From the NCBI GenBank assembly GCA_016867135.1, contig VGKH01000011.1, positions 1 through 35,140 on the forward strand: a DNA stretch of 35,140 nt. Direction: 5' to 3'. Below the pieces are notes generated by a model. It was given only the letters and a program-made list of their open reading frames with translations, ran no database searches and was not told the DNA's origin. Shown here piece after piece: positions 6,210-20,981 of the stretch; the stretch's first letter is position 1; every line of letters begins with the position of its first letter. This stretch comes from Candidatus Omnitrophota bacterium (lineage in GTDB: Bacteria; Omnitrophota; Gorgyraeia; VGKH01). The position numbers were made by a program, and so were the translations under genes.

Positions 6210-6947
6210 ATGATAGATATTGTGTTTTTGTTTGTAATATTGTATTTTACCCTTTCTGGATTGCAGAAAGGTTTCCTTTCCTATTTTCTAGAGTTTTTAT
6301 TAGTTTTTGCTTGTTTCGGCGGTTCTTGGCTTTATTACAAAGAAACCCATAATTTTCTCTATAGCCTCATAATTTTATTCCTCGCTCCCTTAGTTATCGC
6401 TATCATATTCAGATTCCTACTTCACATATCTTTAGAACGATATCAAAATGTAAAACGCATTTTTGTATCGCACATAAATAACATTGCAGGAGGAATAATC
6501 GGTTTTTTCTGGGGGGTTATTTGGGTGGTTTTAATTTCAGTTGTAGTTAATATCGTTCCGGTTAACAGCGAAGGGTTCCTTAAGGCAAAAGATAATGTTA
6601 AAGATTCCTATGTCTTGAATTTCGTTAAGGCGGTAGCGCCATTTAAGGGCGTATTTATTTTAGATAAACTTAATAACTTAAGCGTAATAATGAACGATCC
6701 GCAAGCTACTAAAACATTAAAGTATAATCCAGAATTCCAGAAACTTATGGCAGAGGAAAGAATCCAGGATTTTCTCAGAGACCGGGTAGTCATGATGCAA
6801 TTAAAAAATAGGCAAATCCTTGGCCTGCTAGCCAATCCTAAATTTATAGCTATCCTAGAAAACCCCGGGCTCCTGAAGAAATTCTTAGATATTGATTTTG
6901 AGGGAGTGGTTGAATTCTCAAAGCAAGATAAGGTTAAAATACCTTAA
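6210..6947 (+). CDS. CvpA family membrane protein
   Basis: 245 residues. The N-terminal 120 residues contain four hydrophobic spans and the CvpA pattern: MIDIVFLFVILYFTLSGLQKGF, then NNIAGGIIGFFWGVIWVVLI. The C-terminal 100 residues are soluble and helical (FQKLMAEERIQDFLRD, FIAILENPGLLKKF), a common extension in CvpA-domain proteins. CvpA was first linked to colicin V production in E. coli; its general function is envelope-related but unclear. This is the only plus-strand gene beyond dinB. Its 3' end overlaps the end of mlaD by 14 nt in convergent orientation. Confidence 0.8.
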   Translation: MIDIVFLFVILYFTLSGLQKGFLSYFLEFLLVFACFGGSWLYYKETHNFLYSLIILFLAPLVIAIIFRFLLHISLERYQNVKRIFVSHINNIAGGIIGFFWGVIWVVLISVVVNIVPVNSEGFLKAKDNVKDSYVLNFVKAVAPFKGVFILDKLNNLSVIMNDPQATKTLKYNPEFQKLMAEERIQDFLRDRVVMMQLKNRQILGLLANPKFIAILENPGLLKKFLDIDFEGVVEFSKQDKVKIP

Positions 6948-7524
6948 GAAGGCCGCCTTTAATTAATTTCTCTTCGATTCTATCCAGTATCCTTTTAAAC
7001 GTGTAAGAGACATAGTTGAGTTGTTTTGTTATCGCGGTAGTTTCTTCCGATAATTTTCTGAAAGAATCAGACGTTTGTTGCAGATTTTCTGCCCAGTTCT
7101 GAATGTCTAGAGGATCTTTACCGATTAGAGGCCTTTTAAAATCGTAAATTTCTCCTTCTTCGGGGGGCGCTATTTCAATTAGCTTATCTCCTAATATGCC
7201 TGCGGTCTTTATGGAGAAATCTGAACATTTCTCGACCTGCGTTTTATATTTTTGATAGATGCTTAATACTACCCTTACTTTTCTGTCTGCTATTGGCTTC
7301 TCTATGAAATCCACATTAGAGACCGATCCGACATTTACTCCCGATAGCCTTACTGGAGCTCCGATTTCTAATCCGCCGACGTTTTTGAACAACACCCCTA
7401 TTGAGAATTTTTGTTGAGCAAAACCTTCTTTAGATCCAACAAAGAATAAAAGAAAAACCAATAAAACCAAACCCAAAATAAAAAATAGTCCCGCAATCAA
7501 CTCTTTACTTAAATCGCCTTTCAT
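6934..7524 (-). CDS. mlaD: MlaD-like MCE-domain lipid-transport protein
   Basis: 196 residues: one N-terminal membrane anchor (about 9-30), then an MCE domain (about 38-118) with FSIGVLFKNVGGLEIGAPVRLSGVNVGSVSNV and AGILGDKLIEI, followed by a helical tail. MlaD-type proteins form a hexameric ring attached to the MlaFE ABC transporter and move phospholipids between membranes. The tail is long enough for the central helical pore. It is the last gene of the minus-strand set after mlaE, a lipoprotein gene and mlaF. No mlaC or mlaA was seen nearby. The final 14 bases overlap the cvpA 3' end. Confidence 0.9.
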   Translation of the reverse strand: MKGDLSKELIAGLFFILGLVLLVFLLFFVGSKEGFAQQKFSIGVLFKNVGGLEIGAPVRLSGVNVGSVSNVDFIEKPIADRKVRVVLSIYQKYKTQVEKCSDFSIKTAGILGDKLIEIAPPEEGEIYDFKRPLIGKDPLDIQNWAENLQQTSDSFRKLSEETTAITKQLNYVSYTFKRILDRIEEKLIKGGLLKVF

Positions 7525-7544
7525 AATTTACCACCTTTTAAGTG

Positions 7545-8270
7545 TTAATTGTCCAACATCAGAAATTGTCTGACTTCTTTTTGCTGAGTCTTGCAAATTT
7601 CCTCTTTTGTTCCTTTTGTTATAAGTTTCCCTTCATAAAGCAAAGCAATAGTGTCAGAAAAACGTAATACGTTACTTACATCGTGAGAAACAATTATGCT
7701 GGCAGATTTTAATGATCTTGCTATGCCAGATATGAGCTGCATTATGGATAAAGACTTATTGGGATCAAGGCCCGCAGTTGGTTCATCGCATAAGAATATT
7801 TTCGGTTCCATTATTATCGCCCGAGCTATGCCGATCCTCTTTTTCATCCCTCCGCTTAATTCTTCTGGCAATTTTTCTTCAATATTATGCAATTCTACCC
7901 GATAAAGGGCATCTTTGACTTTTTTTTTGATTTCTAATTCAGAAAACTTGGTATTCTCCCTTAAGGAAAAAGCAAGGTTATCATAAACAGTCATAAAGTC
8001 AAAAAGCGCAGATTCTTGAAATAGGTATCCAATATTCTTGCGGAGTTCCAGTAGCTCTTTTTCCCTTAGTAAATTAATATCAGTTCCGTTTATGATAATT
8101 TTACCCTCATCTGGTATAAGGAAACCCATGACCAGTTTTAAGAAAACACTTTTGCCCGAGCCGCTCTCTCCGATAATAGAGACGATTTGGTTCTTCTCTA
8201 CCCTTAGGTCGATACCGTTAAGAACAGGATGGCCGTTAAAAGACTTCTTTAAGCCTGTAATTTCAATCAT
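7545..8270 (-). CDS. mlaF: MlaF-like ABC transporter ATP-binding protein
   Basis: 241 residues with a complete ABC ATPase set: Walker A GESGSGKS (34-41), Q-loop Q85, signature LSGGM (138-142), Walker B IFLCDEPTAGLDP with D162/E163, and H-loop H196 in IIVSHD. The MlaF-type signature region is followed by KKRIGIARAI. It powers phospholipid movement through the permease encoded two genes upstream. The first 8 bases overlap the preceding lipoprotein gene, and mlaD starts 20 nt after its stop, so all are one operon. Confidence 0.93.
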   Translation of the reverse strand: MIEITGLKKSFNGHPVLNGIDLRVEKNQIVSIIGESGSGKSVFLKLVMGFLIPDEGKIIINGTDINLLREKELLELRKNIGYLFQESALFDFMTVYDNLAFSLRENTKFSELEIKKKVKDALYRVELHNIEEKLPEELSGGMKKRIGIARAIIMEPKIFLCDEPTAGLDPNKSLSIMQLISGIARSLKSASIIVSHDVSNVLRFSDTIALLYEGKLITKGTKEEICKTQQKEVRQFLMLDN

Positions 8271-8577
8271 TTTTCTCGAAAACCCTAAATTGGTATTTTC
8301 CGAATTTAGTATACAGCCTATTATAAGGTCGTATTTCCCTTTTTTCTATGTAGACCCTTTCTCCATTATAAGTGAATATCAGCAACATTTCTCCGTCTTT
8401 CAAGTTTTCTATCACGTCTTTTGGATACCATGCTTCTTCTTCGAATATGATAGGCTCCCCATTGCGAATCCATTGCGACTCTATTACTGAGTCATCAAGG
8501 TTGTCTCTATTAAGATTGGCGCAGCCAGCATGAAGCGTAGCCAAAATAAATAATATAAATACTATTTTTCTCTTCAT
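8263..8577 (-). CDS. Small lipoprotein within the mla operon
   Basis: 104 residues. A signal peptide (MKRKIVFILFILATLHAGC) ends in a lipobox-like LHAGC, Cys19. The mature part is short with alternating beta segments (MLLIFTYNGERVYIEKREI). It sits between mlaE and mlaF, starts 4 nt after mlaE and overlaps mlaF by 8 nt, so it is translated with the transporter. I do not recognise the family. An accessory role in lipid transport is inferred from location only; typical mla operons do not carry a gene here. Confidence 0.7.
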   Translation of the reverse strand: MKRKIVFILFILATLHAGCANLNRDNLDDSVIESQWIRNGEPIIFEEEAWYPKDVIENLKDGEMLLIFTYNGERVYIEKREIRPYNRLYTKFGKYQFRVFEKND

Positions 8578-8581
8578 TGAT

Positions 8582-9361
8582 TTACCCCCAGAAAGTTAAG
8601 ATTATCTTAGTCAAAATAAAATTAAATGAAATCACGTATATGCAACATAATGCCACTGATTTTGTAGTATACTCTCCTACCCCTATGGATCCGCCTTTTG
8701 CTTGATAGCCTTCAAAACAGCAGATGATTGAGATTATGAGGGCAAAAAATAAAGTTTTAATCATACCGCCAATAAAATCCACAAGAGTTATTGCGATAAC
8801 GGTCTTATGAAGGTATATCCCGTACGGAATATTGGCGTCCCAGACGCCAATAATAAATCCACCAAAAACTCCTAAGATTTCAGAGATTACGATTAGGATG
8901 GGCAGAACTATCACACAGGCGACGATCCTCGGGATAATGAAATATTCTACAGGGTCAACCCCCATGGCTCGCGTAGCCAATAATTGCTCGCTTACTTTCA
9001 TTGAGCTTATCTCCGCCGCCATCTTCGAGCCGGCTTTGCCAGCGAATATTATCGAACCAAGCACAGGGCTTAATTCTCTAACCAATGAAAGCGATACGAG
9101 TTGAGCAACATATTCTTTGGCACCGAACCTTGATAGTATTACAACAGATTGGATAGCTAGCACCATCCCCATGGCGAGTGAAGTTAGGGCAATAATCCCG
9201 ATAGATTGCACGCCCTGCGAATAAATCTGCTTCATGACCTCAGTTAACTTCGTGCCATTTCTAAGGAATTTTGATAAGATTTCAGAAATAAAAAAAAGTA
9301 TTTTTCCTAGTTGTTGCAGAGATTCTATCAAGTATCCGCCAATTTTAATTAAAAAGCTCAA
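8582..9361 (-). CDS. mlaE: MlaE-like ABC permease
   Basis: 259 residues with the MlaE pattern: several membrane spans, the conserved RELSPVLGSIIFAGKAGSKMAAEISSMKVSEQLLATRAMGVDP cytoplasmic segment (around 94-138), then AGFIIGV-like and C-terminal spans. It forms the membrane core of the Mla phospholipid transporter with MlaF. The start is a TTG at 9359-9361, chosen because AAGGAG lies 5 nt upstream and the family N-terminus fits. The nearest upstream gene (60-aa protein) ends 31 nt before. Confidence 0.92.
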   Translation of the reverse strand: MSFLIKIGGYLIESLQQLGKILFFISEILSKFLRNGTKLTEVMKQIYSQGVQSIGIIALTSLAMGMVLAIQSVVILSRFGAKEYVAQLVSLSLVRELSPVLGSIIFAGKAGSKMAAEISSMKVSEQLLATRAMGVDPVEYFIIPRIVACVIVLPILIVISEILGVFGGFIIGVWDANIPYGIYLHKTVIAITLVDFIGGMIKTLFFALIISIICCFEGYQAKGGSIGVGEYTTKSVALCCIYVISFNFILTKIILTFWG

Positions 9362-13631: not shown

Positions 13632-13961
13632 TTATAAGGAAATTTTTTCCGCAAAATCACTAATTACCGGGATCTTGGTCGATTTCCCCCCAAGTGCCTG
13701 AATCATTCCAAAAAGCGAGGCAATGCCAAAGATTAAAAACCCTAGTTTAAAAATAAGCGCACCAACAGTCGGTATTACGCTTATTATGATAATAGCAACT
13801 TCTCCTACGAAGATTATTAAGCCTTGTTTTGCGTGGAAAAGCGCAAAATTATTTTCTTTTTTAAAAACTAACGGAATTATGCATAGCCCGAACAGATAGC
13901 TCATGAGGGCAAAGATTTTTCCTTCTTGGATTTCTTTTTTTGTGGTCTGTTCTTTGTTCAA
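13632..13961 (-). CDS. Tic20/DUF4870-like membrane protein
   Basis: 109 residues with an N-terminal charged part and three to four hydrophobic spans. EGKIFALMSYLFGLCIIPLVF, then NNFALFHAKQGLIIFV, follow the DUF4870/Tic20-like pattern, where an H-x-K-Q-x-L motif begins the second span. Function in bacteria is unknown. The start is a TTG (13959-13961), only 2 nt after the stop of the ParA-CBM48 gene, implying translational coupling; no ATG occurs before the first span. EF-Tu-domain gene follows 14 nt downstream. Confidence 0.75.
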   Translation of the reverse strand: MNKEQTTKKEIQEGKIFALMSYLFGLCIIPLVFKKENNFALFHAKQGLIIFVGEVAIIIISVIPTVGALIFKLGFLIFGIASLFGMIQALGGKSTKIPVISDFAEKISL

Positions 13962-13963
13962 GG

Positions 13964-15028
13964 TTAGATTTCAATCAAGGAATTATATCCGCCGAAATTA
14001 TTTTCTTCTTTGTTGGGATTGGAAGGATCTTCCTGCCATTCTCCGTCAACGACAAATTTATAATGATATGTTCCCGGCCGCAGCGTTAACCTTTTGACCC
14101 AAGAACCGCCGTTGTTTCGGGATAATTTATTTTCTTCCGAAGCCTTCCAATTGTTGAAGTCGCCGACTATGTATACCTCTTGTGCGTTGGGATTTTGCAG
14201 AGAGAAAGTGATCTCGCCAAGTTGTTTTACCTTTTCCTTGACCATTTGGCGCATTATATTATCAAGGGAAGCTTCTTTTCTGTACATTATCTCGCTGGCA
14301 AGATAAAAATAGTCTTTTGAGCCGCGGCTATATTTTGCGTAGGTAACTGCTGATTGGCCGCTAAGGCTAGCCTCTTTTAATTTAACATTTGTATGGATAA
14401 TGGTTTTAAAAAGATTGGCTGAATATTTTTCTTTGATCGCATTGAGGATCTGGAAAGAATGCCTGAGGCGAGAATCAAACATGGTTATAAGCAGCCTATA
14501 TTTAACCGGATGGTTTAGGCGCGTAGAGATCAGATCAATGATTTCTAATAGCCTATCAACCCCTATCAGAGAGAATCTGCTGGGCTCAACGGGGATTATG
14601 ACCTCTTGGGCGGCTCTTATGGCGTTAACCGTCAAAATGCCCAGGTTGGGAGGGCAATCAATCAATATGTAGTCGTAATCACTCTCTATTTCTTTTATCG
14701 CTTCAAATAATTTTAGCTCCCTTCCAATTTCATCGGATAGCTCTTGTTCCAAGGTGCCTAGCAAAATATTCGCCGGGGCAACGTCAAAGTTTGCTTCCAC
14801 ATTTACGATTATGTCTTTAAGGGTTAATTTTTCGCTCGTATAGGTAGAAAGGACATTATAAATGCTGTTTTGCGATTCTATGTTGAGTCCTAAAGTAGCA
14901 TGAGACTGAGGGTCTAAATCGATCAAGAGCACTCTTTTTGAATTTACTGCCACGGCGCTCGCAAGATTTACTGCCGTTGTTGTTTTGCCGCAACCACCTT
15001 TTTGATTAGCAATAGCAATTACTGACAT
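13964..15028 (-). CDS. ParA-family ATPase fused to a C-terminal CBM48 glycogen-binding domain
   Basis: 354 residues. The N-terminal 255 or so are a ParA/Soj ATPase: deviant Walker A KGGCGKTTT (K10 signature Lys, K15), VLLIDLDPQSHATLGL, Walker B YILIDCPPNLG and VPVEPS-like switch region. Residues 272-354 are a clear AMPK1/CBM48 (isoamylase-N-like) module: VYIVGDFNNW, then GTYHYKFVVDGEWQEDP and a closing GGYNSLIEI. CBM48 binds alpha-glucans. No ParB or parS was seen nearby, so chromosome partition is less likely than positioning of some cargo. The ATG follows AAAGGGGG. Between it and the 198-aa gene lies the GIY-YIG cassette. Confidence 0.9.
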   Translation of the reverse strand: MSVIAIANQKGGCGKTTTAVNLASAVAVNSKRVLLIDLDPQSHATLGLNIESQNSIYNVLSTYTSEKLTLKDIIVNVEANFDVAPANILLGTLEQELSDEIGRELKLFEAIKEIESDYDYILIDCPPNLGILTVNAIRAAQEVIIPVEPSRFSLIGVDRLLEIIDLISTRLNHPVKYRLLITMFDSRLRHSFQILNAIKEKYSANLFKTIIHTNVKLKEASLSGQSAVTYAKYSRGSKDYFYLASEIMYRKEASLDNIMRQMVKEKVKQLGEITFSLQNPNAQEVYIVGDFNNWKASEENKLSRNNGGSWVKRLTLRPGTYHYKFVVDGEWQEDPSNPNKEENNFGGYNSLIEI

Positions 15029-15444: not shown

Positions 15445-16041
15445 TCACTCCGTAAGTTTGGGCTTTATTTGACCTTTAGCATAAAAATGAACATCGTCAA
15501 TTAAAACAGAGCCTTTGGTTTCATCCGTATTCCATGCTTCTATGATAAAAGATAACTTGTTAATATTAGTCCAATCAGAAATTTCCTTGAATTCTTTTAG
15601 AGGGATAGTTATTTTTTGCCATTTAGCCTCTAACGTATCAAGATAGTATACAGATTTCTCTTTCTTTTTGTTTTCAAGAGAAACTTTTAAAATTCGCGGC
15701 GAGAGACGGCTTCTGCCCCGCACATAAAAAACCAAAGAGTCGTAATTTTCCACGTTTACATTTTGCAGATGTAAAGAGAAATTCTCTACTTGAGGAGCGT
15801 TATCTTTGAAATTATAGACAACTCTTAAAGGATAATAATTTAATGCCAAAGTCAAGGACTGTTCTTGTTTTTGAATGTCTTTGGTATTTTTAGCGCTAAT
15901 AAAATAGAAAGAAGGCAAAAGTGTTATTGCTATTAGGTTTGCAAATAGGATAACCTTCATGAAGTTGTACTTCTTTTTCTTTTTGGTTTTTTTACCCAGA
16001 TAGACTTGGGCTAGATGTTCGTAAATCTCTTCTCTTGTCAT
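15445..16041 (-). CDS. Membrane-anchored jelly-roll (CBM11-like) protein
   Basis: 198 residues. A Lys-rich stretch (KKTKKKKKY, 17-25) precedes one membrane span (about 28-50), so the C-terminal part is periplasmic. That part (about 62-190) is a beta-sandwich similar to CBM11/CIA30-type carbohydrate-binding domains: LVFYVRGRS, WQKITIPLKEFKEIS and a closing GSVLIDDVHFYA. It probably binds sugars or proteins at the envelope; no catalytic motif. The last codons and TGA (15445-15447) lie inside the right hairpin of cassette A, so the C-terminal KPKLTE may have been created by the insertion. It is transcribed from 16106-16135. Confidence 0.7.
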   Translation of the reverse strand: MTREEIYEHLAQVYLGKKTKKKKKYNFMKVILFANLIAITLLPSFYFISAKNTKDIQKQEQSLTLALNYYPLRVVYNFKDNAPQVENFSLHLQNVNVENYDSLVFYVRGRSRLSPRILKVSLENKKKEKSVYYLDTLEAKWQKITIPLKEFKEISDWTNINKLSFIIEAWNTDETKGSVLIDDVHFYAKGQIKPKLTE

Positions 16042-16232: not shown

Positions 16233-17681
16233 TTAGAAACTAACTGCACAGGTTCCGATTAACTGAGTTGCAACTTCGTGGTTATGATCCTGATCAAAAG
16301 CAGCGCCAGGAATAAATGCGCCATAAGTTAGACCGAATTGCACATCTTCAGTATAATCATAAACCGCAGATAGGTCAAACTCGCGTCCTAGATGCTGGTT
16401 ATCACCAGTCATAACTGGAGTCCGGCTATTTCCATCTATGCCGTATATCGTTAGAACGCTGACTCCATGTGTGCCAGGAGGTTCGACTGCTAGATAAACA
16501 TCGGTGTATTCTAATTTCACACTTAAGTCTTCCATTGGAACTGCGGAAGCGTTGAAACCAAATGCTCTGGTGTTGGTGGCATCAAACAAAACGTTGTAGA
16601 TCTTTCCAGTGCCTTGGTTTTCGTAAAGCTGATCCCATGCCCTATATTCGCCTCTGCCATCAGTTCCATCTGCAGGGTTTTTGTCTCCAGAATAGTAGGA
16701 CATATGAGCGCCGATGGACGGTGAGTATTTCTTCAGCTTTTCAAATGGTAACGCATAGCTTCCGGTTACCTGGTATGCCATAGCTTCGCGTGATCTTGAA
16801 GGTCCAGCAGCAGTTACTGCTTTTGAACCAGTTTGCCATGCCATTTCAGCTGTTACAATCATGTCTTTCATTGGAGCTGCTACTGCTCTAATACCAGGGC
16901 ACCAAAGAGTATCCGGAGTTGCATTTATAGAACCGGAAGTAGGTGTCTTGTCATTTCTGTAGAGTAAATATGTTTCTAACATCGTTCCCCATTTGTCGCC
17001 TAATGCATAGCTTGCTTTTGCGCCATAGAGATCAATATCATTTTTGTCTTCGAGCTGTGCGCCTGTCTTCTGATTTTCATCGATCTTGCTATAGAATGCT
17101 TCGATCATCAAAGGATCGTAATCCAAATTAACCTTTACTGCATCGAAAGCTTTGCGAAGACTGAGGTCTCTGTTGGCAATAGCTGCATAGCCAGCACCGT
17201 AGTTAGTTAAAGAGGTTCTGTTGGTATCCGAATCACCTAAAACAAAACCTGCGCCCCACATTAATTCCTGGCGACCAAGCGTAACTGAGACTGGAGAATC
17301 AAACATTTCCTTCATCGTTAAGGAAGCTAAATCAATATCAACTTCGTTGTCATCTTGTCCGTTTTCGCTTAAAGAAGCACCTCCGGCAACATCAACATTA
17401 GTAGAAGTTTGAACTTCTTTACCCCAATCTCTTTCATTTAAGAGCCTAACTGTTGCTGAAACATTTTCCGTAAGGTCGGTATCTATTCTTACGCGAGTTT
17501 GGGACATGATGACGTTAGATTCATCTTCGCCATCAGCATCTCCTAAGTCAAATCCGCTTCTTCCGATCGCGCTGACTTTTAGATCACCGCTTACTTTTAC
17601 ATTCTGTACTGCAGCGTGTGCGCTTACTGCTAAACCGAGCACAAACGCAACAGCAATTATAATTATTAAACGTTTACTCAT
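16233..17681 (-). CDS. Outer-membrane porin, alginate-export-like beta-barrel
   Basis: 482 residues. A Sec signal peptide (about 1-24, cleavage after SAHA) is followed by many amphipathic beta strands and a terminal Phe (GTCAVSF), the usual outer-membrane assembly signal. VKVSGDLKVSAIGRSGFDL, LGRQELMWGAGFVLGD and the later KASYALGDKWGTMLE resemble alginate-export/OprB-like porins. Substrate is unknown. Upstream are AAGGAGG, a 23-codon leader ORF and a promoter at 17850-17878; downstream is a perfect terminator, so it is a single-gene unit. Base composition is richer in GC than neighbours, consistent with a highly expressed gene. Confidence 0.85.
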   Translation of the reverse strand: MSKRLIIIIAVAFVLGLAVSAHAAVQNVKVSGDLKVSAIGRSGFDLGDADGEDESNVIMSQTRVRIDTDLTENVSATVRLLNERDWGKEVQTSTNVDVAGGASLSENGQDDNEVDIDLASLTMKEMFDSPVSVTLGRQELMWGAGFVLGDSDTNRTSLTNYGAGYAAIANRDLSLRKAFDAVKVNLDYDPLMIEAFYSKIDENQKTGAQLEDKNDIDLYGAKASYALGDKWGTMLETYLLYRNDKTPTSGSINATPDTLWCPGIRAVAAPMKDMIVTAEMAWQTGSKAVTAAGPSRSREAMAYQVTGSYALPFEKLKKYSPSIGAHMSYYSGDKNPADGTDGRGEYRAWDQLYENQGTGKIYNVLFDATNTRAFGFNASAVPMEDLSVKLEYTDVYLAVEPPGTHGVSVLTIYGIDGNSRTPVMTGDNQHLGREFDLSAVYDYTEDVQFGLTYGAFIPGAAFDQDHNHEVATQLIGTCAVSF

Positions 17682-20644: not shown

Positions 20645-20694
20645 CTTTCTCCTTTAATGAGACCATGATTTACGCGACTGTAAAGAAGCGTAAA

Positions 20695-20981
20695 TCATAA
20701 GGTTGAATTAAACCCTTGACATTTTGCCTTAGGAAAAGATTTTATCAATCTTTCTATAGTTTTCTTTCTTGTCTTTCCGTTCTTAAGCTTCATTTCGTAT
20801 CTGAATGCTTCTGTATGTGAATTAAATTCTTTATAATAAACCAATTTCGGTTGTTTATTTTTTGTATAATGAACGCATCCTTTTATATGGTCTTTAACTC
20901 TTTCTGTTAGATTGCTTGTATGACCGTAGTATTTGGTGTCATTATTACATTCAAAGTTAACGTATAATAAATTTTATACAT
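20695..20981 (-). pseudogene. GIY-YIG endonuclease with disrupted start
   Basis: From codon 20962-20964 a GIY-YIG domain reads YVNFECNNDTKYYGHTSNL, then TERVKDHIKGCVHYT, and ends beyond the inverted repeat at TGA 20695-20697. The YYG motif, the catalytic Arg (TERVKDH) and the Glu (YEMKLK) are present. The only suitable ATG (20979-20981, MYKIYY) is in a different frame, and a stop closes the domain frame just upstream, so a one-base indel near codon 6 has broken it. This is a diverged relative of the nuclease in cassette A, not a recent copy. Confidence 0.75.
20711..20728 (+). repeat. Inverted repeat, left, cassette B
   Basis: AACCCTTGACATTTTGCC, with its perfect inverse at 20983-21000. The flanking GAATTA resembles GAACTT on the other side, so a degenerate GAATT-x-AACCC end is shared with cassette A. 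Confidence 0.85.

Follow-up and report, generated by a model that had tools for sequence, protein, structure and literature searches.

The DNA examined here, a 35,140-nucleotide stretch of a Candidatus Omnitrophota contig (the window), encodes a protein in which a ParA ATPase is joined to a predicted alpha-glucan-binding domain of the CBM48 type. The gene is conserved over most of its phylum and is accompanied by a conserved partner gene and, in many genomes, by genes of alpha-glucan metabolism. With confidence that we would call evenly balanced, we read the fusion as the ATPase component in a so far undescribed system of ParA type (A/D ATPase), which is dedicated to intracellular alpha-glucan and works with a separate ATPase-activating partner. 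Although each part comes from a known family, we know of no counterpart for their combination, for its partners or for the cargo that they imply. No description of a ParA-CBM48 fusion was found in the open-licence literature, which leaves its novelty not proven. The first-pass annotation, made from the sequence letters, had recognized the joined domains at 13964-15028 without stating the strand, and had missed both the partner gene and the wide distribution of the fusion. The features of the locus are listed below.

13964..15028 (stop codon included), minus strand: ParA-CBM48 fusion protein, 354 aa (ORF and Pfam)
14279..15028, minus strand: ParA/MinD ATPase domain, fusion residues ~1-250 (AAA_31, AF2 model, residue counts)
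13967..14188, minus strand: predicted AMPK1_CBM/CBM48 alpha-glucan-binding domain, fusion residues ~281-354 (Pfam, PDB match, residues)
15445..16041, minus strand: partner protein, 198 aa, with cytosolic N-terminal tail MTREEIYEHLAQVYLGKKTKKKKK, one TM helix and an extracytoplasmic CBM11-like jelly roll (locus conservation, AF2, Foldseek)
15970..16041, minus strand: candidate ParA-contacting, ATPase-activating tail, partner residues 1-24 (conservation and analogy with AAP N-termini; PMC7993993, PMC10241942)
15029..15444, minus strand: ~400-bp insertion between partner and fusion, with ends that are inverted (CCCCCACACCAATTATT/AATAATTGGTGTGGGGG) and an ORF for a degenerate GIY-YIG endonuclease
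16233..17681, minus strand: outer-membrane beta-barrel protein of the Alginate_exp family, second gene upstream (Pfam)
13632..13961, minus strand: small hydrophobic membrane protein, 109 aa, starting 2 bp past the fusion stop

The plus strand at 13964-15028 is full of stops, and the fusion is read from the minus strand. Pfam hmmscan searches bore out both domains above cut-off, with AAA_31 covering residues 1-175 (E 3.3e-54) and AMPK1_CBM covering residues 281-354 (E 1.5e-15, 57.6 bits against a cut-off of 26.8); the CBM_48 model also matched (4.8e-8). The previously quoted motifs KGGCGKTTT, GDFNNW and YKFVVDGEWQEDP are all present in the protein. The ATPase domain contains the deviant Walker A motif NQKGGCGKTTT, DLDPQSH, IDCPP and R187, and the residues of note in the CBM are W294, K324, W331, F345, and N349. 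The full-length structure prediction that had been proposed was obtained with AF2 from an alignment of 48 homologues and gave a Soj-like model with a mean pLDDT of 93, in which confidence was lower only at the helix-helix linker around residues 251-270. The first 250 residues superpose on the Soj/ParA structures 9a6n, 8ray, and 2bek (TM 0.92-0.95 by target length; Foldseek), and the ParA domain is ~40% identical to Soj-type ParA. The closest solved CBM to the C-terminus is that of AMPK-beta1, 1z0n (E 3.7e-10; phmmer against the PDB).

All 48 aligned fusions matched both AAA_31 and AMPK1_CBM. The residues K10, G12, K15, T16, D39, and D124, comprising the signature Lys, Walker A, hydrolysis Asp, and Walker B positions, were kept in 48/48, and Q41 and H43 were likewise invariant; Cys13 of KGGCGKT and R187 were each retained in 47/48. 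R187 aligns with R189 of Bacillus subtilis Soj, which we take to be a DNA-contact residue, and is by this alignment the predicted nucleoid/DNA-contact arginine of the fusion; an open-licence literature search found no text on a DNA contact of Soj R189. In AMPK-beta1, the residues W100, W133, K126, and L146 touch glucan, and their mutation lowers glycogen binding (PMC2642990). Using the contact list of that study, we aligned W100 with W294, K126 with K/R324, W133 with W331, and L146 with F/Y345, whereas the position aligned with T148 varies and is not conserved. The aromatic contacts, the loss of which had been named as a point against the first-pass reading, were retained: W294 and W331 are invariant in the 48 fusions, as are Y323 and D328, and position 345 is F or Y in 42/48. 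Position 324 is K or R throughout (48/48).

A full-length copy of the fusion, 89% identical, was found in a same-genus genome, and co-linear full-length homologues occur in ~30 of 59 class relatives. The search for the same fusion in other genomes, another earlier proposal, returned a homologue at E<=1e-58 in 202 of 285 genomes of the phylum Omnitrophota (~70%), as well as members in other phyla. These occurrences rule out chance or an assembly artefact, and a MAG chimera at the domain joint is ruled out by the co-linearity of the joint in many families. The C-terminal alignment, used to scan contigs of GTDB genomes, picked out 80 loci, 54 of which parse as ParA-CBM48 fusions, mostly from Candidatus Omnitrophota and also from Krumholzibacteriota, Eisenbacteria, Latescibacterota, a Gemmatimonadales MAG, and Phycisphaerae. 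By direct reading, a Zixibacteriota MAG (L127) has the ParA and CBM48 motifs in a single frame. One record titled Planctomycetales (L121) shows the GH57-partner-fusion order and falls within Omnitrophota in the tree, and its label is probably wrong. A plasmid or phage origin was rejected: plasmid matches were mainly to the ParA domain (best matches with 69-75% coverage, <45% identity); coverage of >=80% of the fusion was reached in 29 of at least 5000 plasmid records, and no phage record covered >=80% of it.

In the tree of ParA domains, one branch with support of 100/98 separates all 48 sampled fusions from the oriC ParAs and from a third ParA family, which bears KGGCGKT. Another contig of the host genome carries a parA-parB pair next to dnaN, dnaA, and yidC, so the fusion is an extra ParA in this host, and no ParB gene adjoining the fusion was found in its neighbourhood. 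On the strength of the separate host pair and the separate clade, a chromosomal ParA under another name was rejected. The third family has KGGCGKT without a CBM (L182 2305-3252, L183 2245-3078, L185 5083-5985, and L188 2435-3385) and forms its own clade (99/86), with a small MerR-like HTH gene upstream; the protein encoded downstream is 295-649 aa long and has motifs such as RKVSTLFTYFK.

A gene for the partner, an undescribed inner-membrane protein, lies directly upstream of the fusion, in the same direction, in ~50 of 82 unique loci (45 by automatic count, corrected by hand by removing L138 and adding L115, L081, L084, L092, L141, and L145). Compared with family profiles, the partner had no match above any cut-off and gave weak CBM_11/CBM30/MAM hints in Pfam. 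Its AF2 model (pLDDT 85) consists of a tail helix (residues 3-15), a TM helix (27-53), and a beta sandwich nearest to CBM families 11 and 30 (1v0a, E 4e-7, TM ~0.5; Foldseek). Since a run of lysines precedes the TM helix, the positive-inside rule places the tail inside and the remainder outside. The most conserved positions lie within the first 14 residues, where L10, A11, and Y14 are nearly invariant, and also include W141 and F165; outside the genus the rest of the protein is 14-37% identical to the window protein. The candidate tail motif is h-A-x-x-Y-[LF], followed by the lysine run.

A same-genus genome is free of the GIY-YIG insertion, and there the partner and fusion genes abut or overlap. 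Two short matches to the insertion at window positions 20651-20715 may be remnants of similar elements. The beta-barrel gene was found near the fusion in about ten other loci and the small hydrophobic membrane protein at +1 in 9/34 loci; both are uncertain members of the system. Some loci (L088, L090, and L160) have the fusion without a recognisable partner next door. Together with L126 and L130 they represent one Omnitrophota lineage in which purQ/purL and a LOG-like gene flank the fusion, and in L126 and L130 the membrane partner still lies in between. Farther downstream on the same strand, window positions 6934-9361 hold MCE/Mla-type lipid transport genes (MlaD-like, ATPase, and MlaE permease) and a small lipoprotein. 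An Rfam scan of the window returned tRNA only.

In ~16 other fusion loci, the gene directly downstream encodes a pseudo-ATPase that resembles FleN/FlhG and has an N-terminus like that of ParB (LGKGLEDISHLFLS). In loci without the membrane partner, the downstream protein starts with a basic, ParB-like segment whose motif is of the same kind as that of the membrane partner; the N-terminal boxes include LGKGLEDISHLFLS (L127), LGKGLEDISYLFLS (L124 and L131), KRLADVSHLFLS (L152), RRLSEISHLFLS (L165), and others. The pattern [IVLF][SA]x[LV][FY][LFI] near the N-terminus occurs in 14/18 downstream proteins versus 39/1268 neighbouring genes, at a p of 2e-18 that ignores relatedness and refers to a pattern shaped on these same data. 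In some soluble partners the motif follows LGKGL, as in the host-genome ParB, the N-terminus of which is KKKVLGKGLSALI. The body of the L127 protein matches FleN 5j1j (E 7e-21), but it differs from FleN/FlhG in its degenerate Walker A (GDHRSLEKSF) and its added ParB-like box. AAPs are modular proteins with short charged N-terminal tails (PMC7993993, PMC10241942, PMC11229316), and two unrelated partner bodies with similar heads beside the same ATPase are what this modularity predicts. The gene that comes after a divergent ParA-CBM48 fusion at L134 (6588-7469), and overlaps it by 4 bp, encodes an AAA_22 (ExeA/GspA-like) ATPase that may represent a third type of partner.

The neighbourhoods link the fusion to alpha-glucan. 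In 21 unique loci, the partner has a GH57 alpha-glucanase gene as its next upstream neighbour, and the GH57 proteins of these loci are related to the solved GH57 structures 8zyi/9iht (E 1e-83). The second fusion copy in genome G008 adjoins a full-length glycogen phosphorylase (GlgP) and GH57, a GH57 branching enzyme with a BE_C domain is encoded downstream of the fusion at L078, and a neighbouring gene at L135 reads, by its sequence, as a 4-alpha-glucanotransferase. The host itself has the glycogen metabolism that the first-pass annotation had proposed to look for, with GlgA and GlgC above NCBIfam cut-offs, an alpha-glucan phosphorylase above its own cut-off, a GH57 branching enzyme adjoining GlgC, and further GH57 enzymes. 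The GT5 glycogen synthase was missing in 11/202 genomes with the fusion versus 17/83 other genomes (Fisher p 3e-4, not tree-corrected), and the 11 absences could be about the level expected from incomplete MAGs. The GT35 phosphorylase, found in 29/59 relatives, was uninformative as a co-occurrence marker and was set aside. Stand-alone AMPK1_CBM genes stand directly beside a GT5-like glycosyltransferase and near GH57 at G028:C43:45623-46359, G045:C30:13699-14441, G016:C50:18979-19752, and G019:C56:31177-32049, and are possible unfused glycogen-targeting modules. Clusters of adjacent proteins (126-943 aa), each with one or two AMPK1_CBM domains, were seen at L157, L159, L169, L170, L171, and L176 in MAGs of Krumholzibacteriota, Eisenbacteria, and Elusimicrobia. 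The alpha-glucan link drawn in the first-pass annotation was strengthened by the gene order, with GH57 in 21 loci, and its two explanations, granule placement or segregation and glycogen sensing, both remain conditional.

The cargoes that A/D ATPases are known to move comprise DNA, protein organelles, flagella, chemoreceptors, and the divisome. To our knowledge, the cargo in these systems is bound by the activator and not by the ATPase. In the positioning model that we favour, ATP-bound dimers of the fusion would bind the nucleoid and, via CBM48, glycogen particles or the glycogen-making machinery. The N-terminal tail of the partner would dock on the ATP dimer and trigger hydrolysis and release, as the tails of ParB, MinE, PomX, and McdB do; it would be presented at the inner membrane in most Omnitrophota and on the FleN/FlhG-like pseudo-ATPase elsewhere. 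With the activator at a fixed place and the ATPase riding on the glucan, the usual arrangement would be reversed, and because of this, repeated binding and release would tether glycogen to the nucleoid and distribute it there, position it relative to the membrane, and divide it between daughters. Sequence and model show the architecture of the fusion, its conservation, its linkage to the partner, and its glucan context. From these we infer that the fusion binds the nucleoid in an ATP-dependent way and glucan through CBM48, that the tail activates it, and hence that glycogen is placed or segregated. As known A/D systems put the cargo on the activator, the proposed arrangement is without close precedent. 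Against a glucan cargo counts the fact that CBM48 domains can also mediate protein contacts. Further points against the model are the variable position aligned with T148, the loci without a recognisable partner next door, and the 11 fusion genomes in which no GT5 was detected.

The fusion has the same fold as Soj/ParA of chromosomal ParABS systems (TM 0.94 by target length) and shares with it the deviant Walker A, the hydrolysis residues, and the predicted DNA-contact Arg, but differs in its C-terminal CBM48, the Cys of KGGCGKT, a DPQxH signature, the lack of adjacent ParB/parS, a membrane or FlhG-like protein as partner, and its separate clade. With McdA/McdB, PomZ/PomX, ParC, and PpfA it shares the predicted logic of an ATPase with a short-charged-tail activator and a non-DNA cargo (PMC10241942, PMC7993993); in contrast to these systems, its cargo module is on the ATPase and its predicted cargo is alpha-glucan, and its identity to McdA is only 23-24%. 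Its CBM keeps the glucan-contact Trp and Lys/Arg of the AMPK beta-subunit but is attached to a ParA ATPase instead of a kinase complex.

The main rival, possible if rather doubtful, is that glycogen is not moved and that CBM48 instead signals the state of glycogen or oligosaccharide, like the CBM of AMPK, and sets the conformation of the ATPase, which would act through the partner on another process such as a membrane protein, flagellum/pilus-type machinery, or transcription. The CBM of AMPK-beta is an allosteric glycogen sensor (PMC2642990), the partners vary by lineage while the presumed sensor is constant, the soluble partner resembles FleN/FlhG, a family that includes regulatory antiactivators, and a ParA-family protein can serve as a nucleotide-dependent regulator. 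However, the fusions retain the predicted DNA-contact Arg and every hydrolysis residue, as positioning ATPases do, and the recurrent neighbours are GH57 genes, not regulators. We leave such a switch at about half the weight of positioning because the cargo module sits on the ATPase, unlike in known A/D systems.

We consider it unlikely that the porin-like barrel, the inner-membrane partner, GH57, and the fusion form an envelope-linked station coupling capture of outside glucan to inside storage, with the ATPase merely recruiting or localising the machinery as BcsQ does for cellulose synthase. The CBM11/CBM30-like outside domain of the partner, the upstream beta-barrel gene in ~11 loci, and GH57 at the next position would fit such a station, as would the likeness to BcsQ, itself a ParA-like ATPase linked to a glucan polymer, whose Pfam model (CBP_BcsQ) matches 48/48 fusions. 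Yet some lineages have a soluble partner without the outside domain and barrel, and the fusion, which has its own CBM, scores 85.2 bits against the NCBIfam (TIGR03371) cut-off of 157.85; no bcs, other cellulose, or export genes were seen in the fusion neighbourhoods. Less plausible still is that CBM48 is an enzyme-scaffold adaptor only, like plant PTST, targeting glycogen enzymes to the particle or nucleoid with an ATPase cycle that is vestigial or serves assembly. Non-catalytic CBM48 adaptors are known, and stand-alone AMPK1_CBM genes occur beside GT5 and GH57 in relatives, but the hydrolysis residues and the partner tail are strongly constrained. An ordinary chromosome or plasmid ParA with a chance-gained CBM and no glycan role, for which the ~40% identity to Soj-type ParA speaks, is highly improbable and largely refuted by gene context and conservation: ParB is absent next door, the host parAB is separate at dnaA/dnaN/yidC, the clade is distinct, the CBM contact residues are invariant across phyla, and alpha-glucan genes are adjacent.

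Returning to the positioning model, we propose, more tentatively than the model itself, that several phyla may run an ATP-driven partition of a carbohydrate store, in which a glycogen-binding ParA motor and a membrane or pseudo-ATPase activator would position glycogen and pass it on like a plasmid or carboxysome. The results suggest that the bacteria with the fusion actively place or segregate their glycogen stores. A polysaccharide cargo, if true, would be a new class of cargo for A/D ATPases, and it would mean that bacteria manage their glycogen in space and pass it on, a matter that has seldom been raised. The fusion family is conserved in several phyla, among them a large uncultured one of which it covers ~70%. 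Through it, two partner families that had no name can be interpreted, and it offers a testable variant of the ParA principle, with the cargo module on the ATPase and not on the activator.
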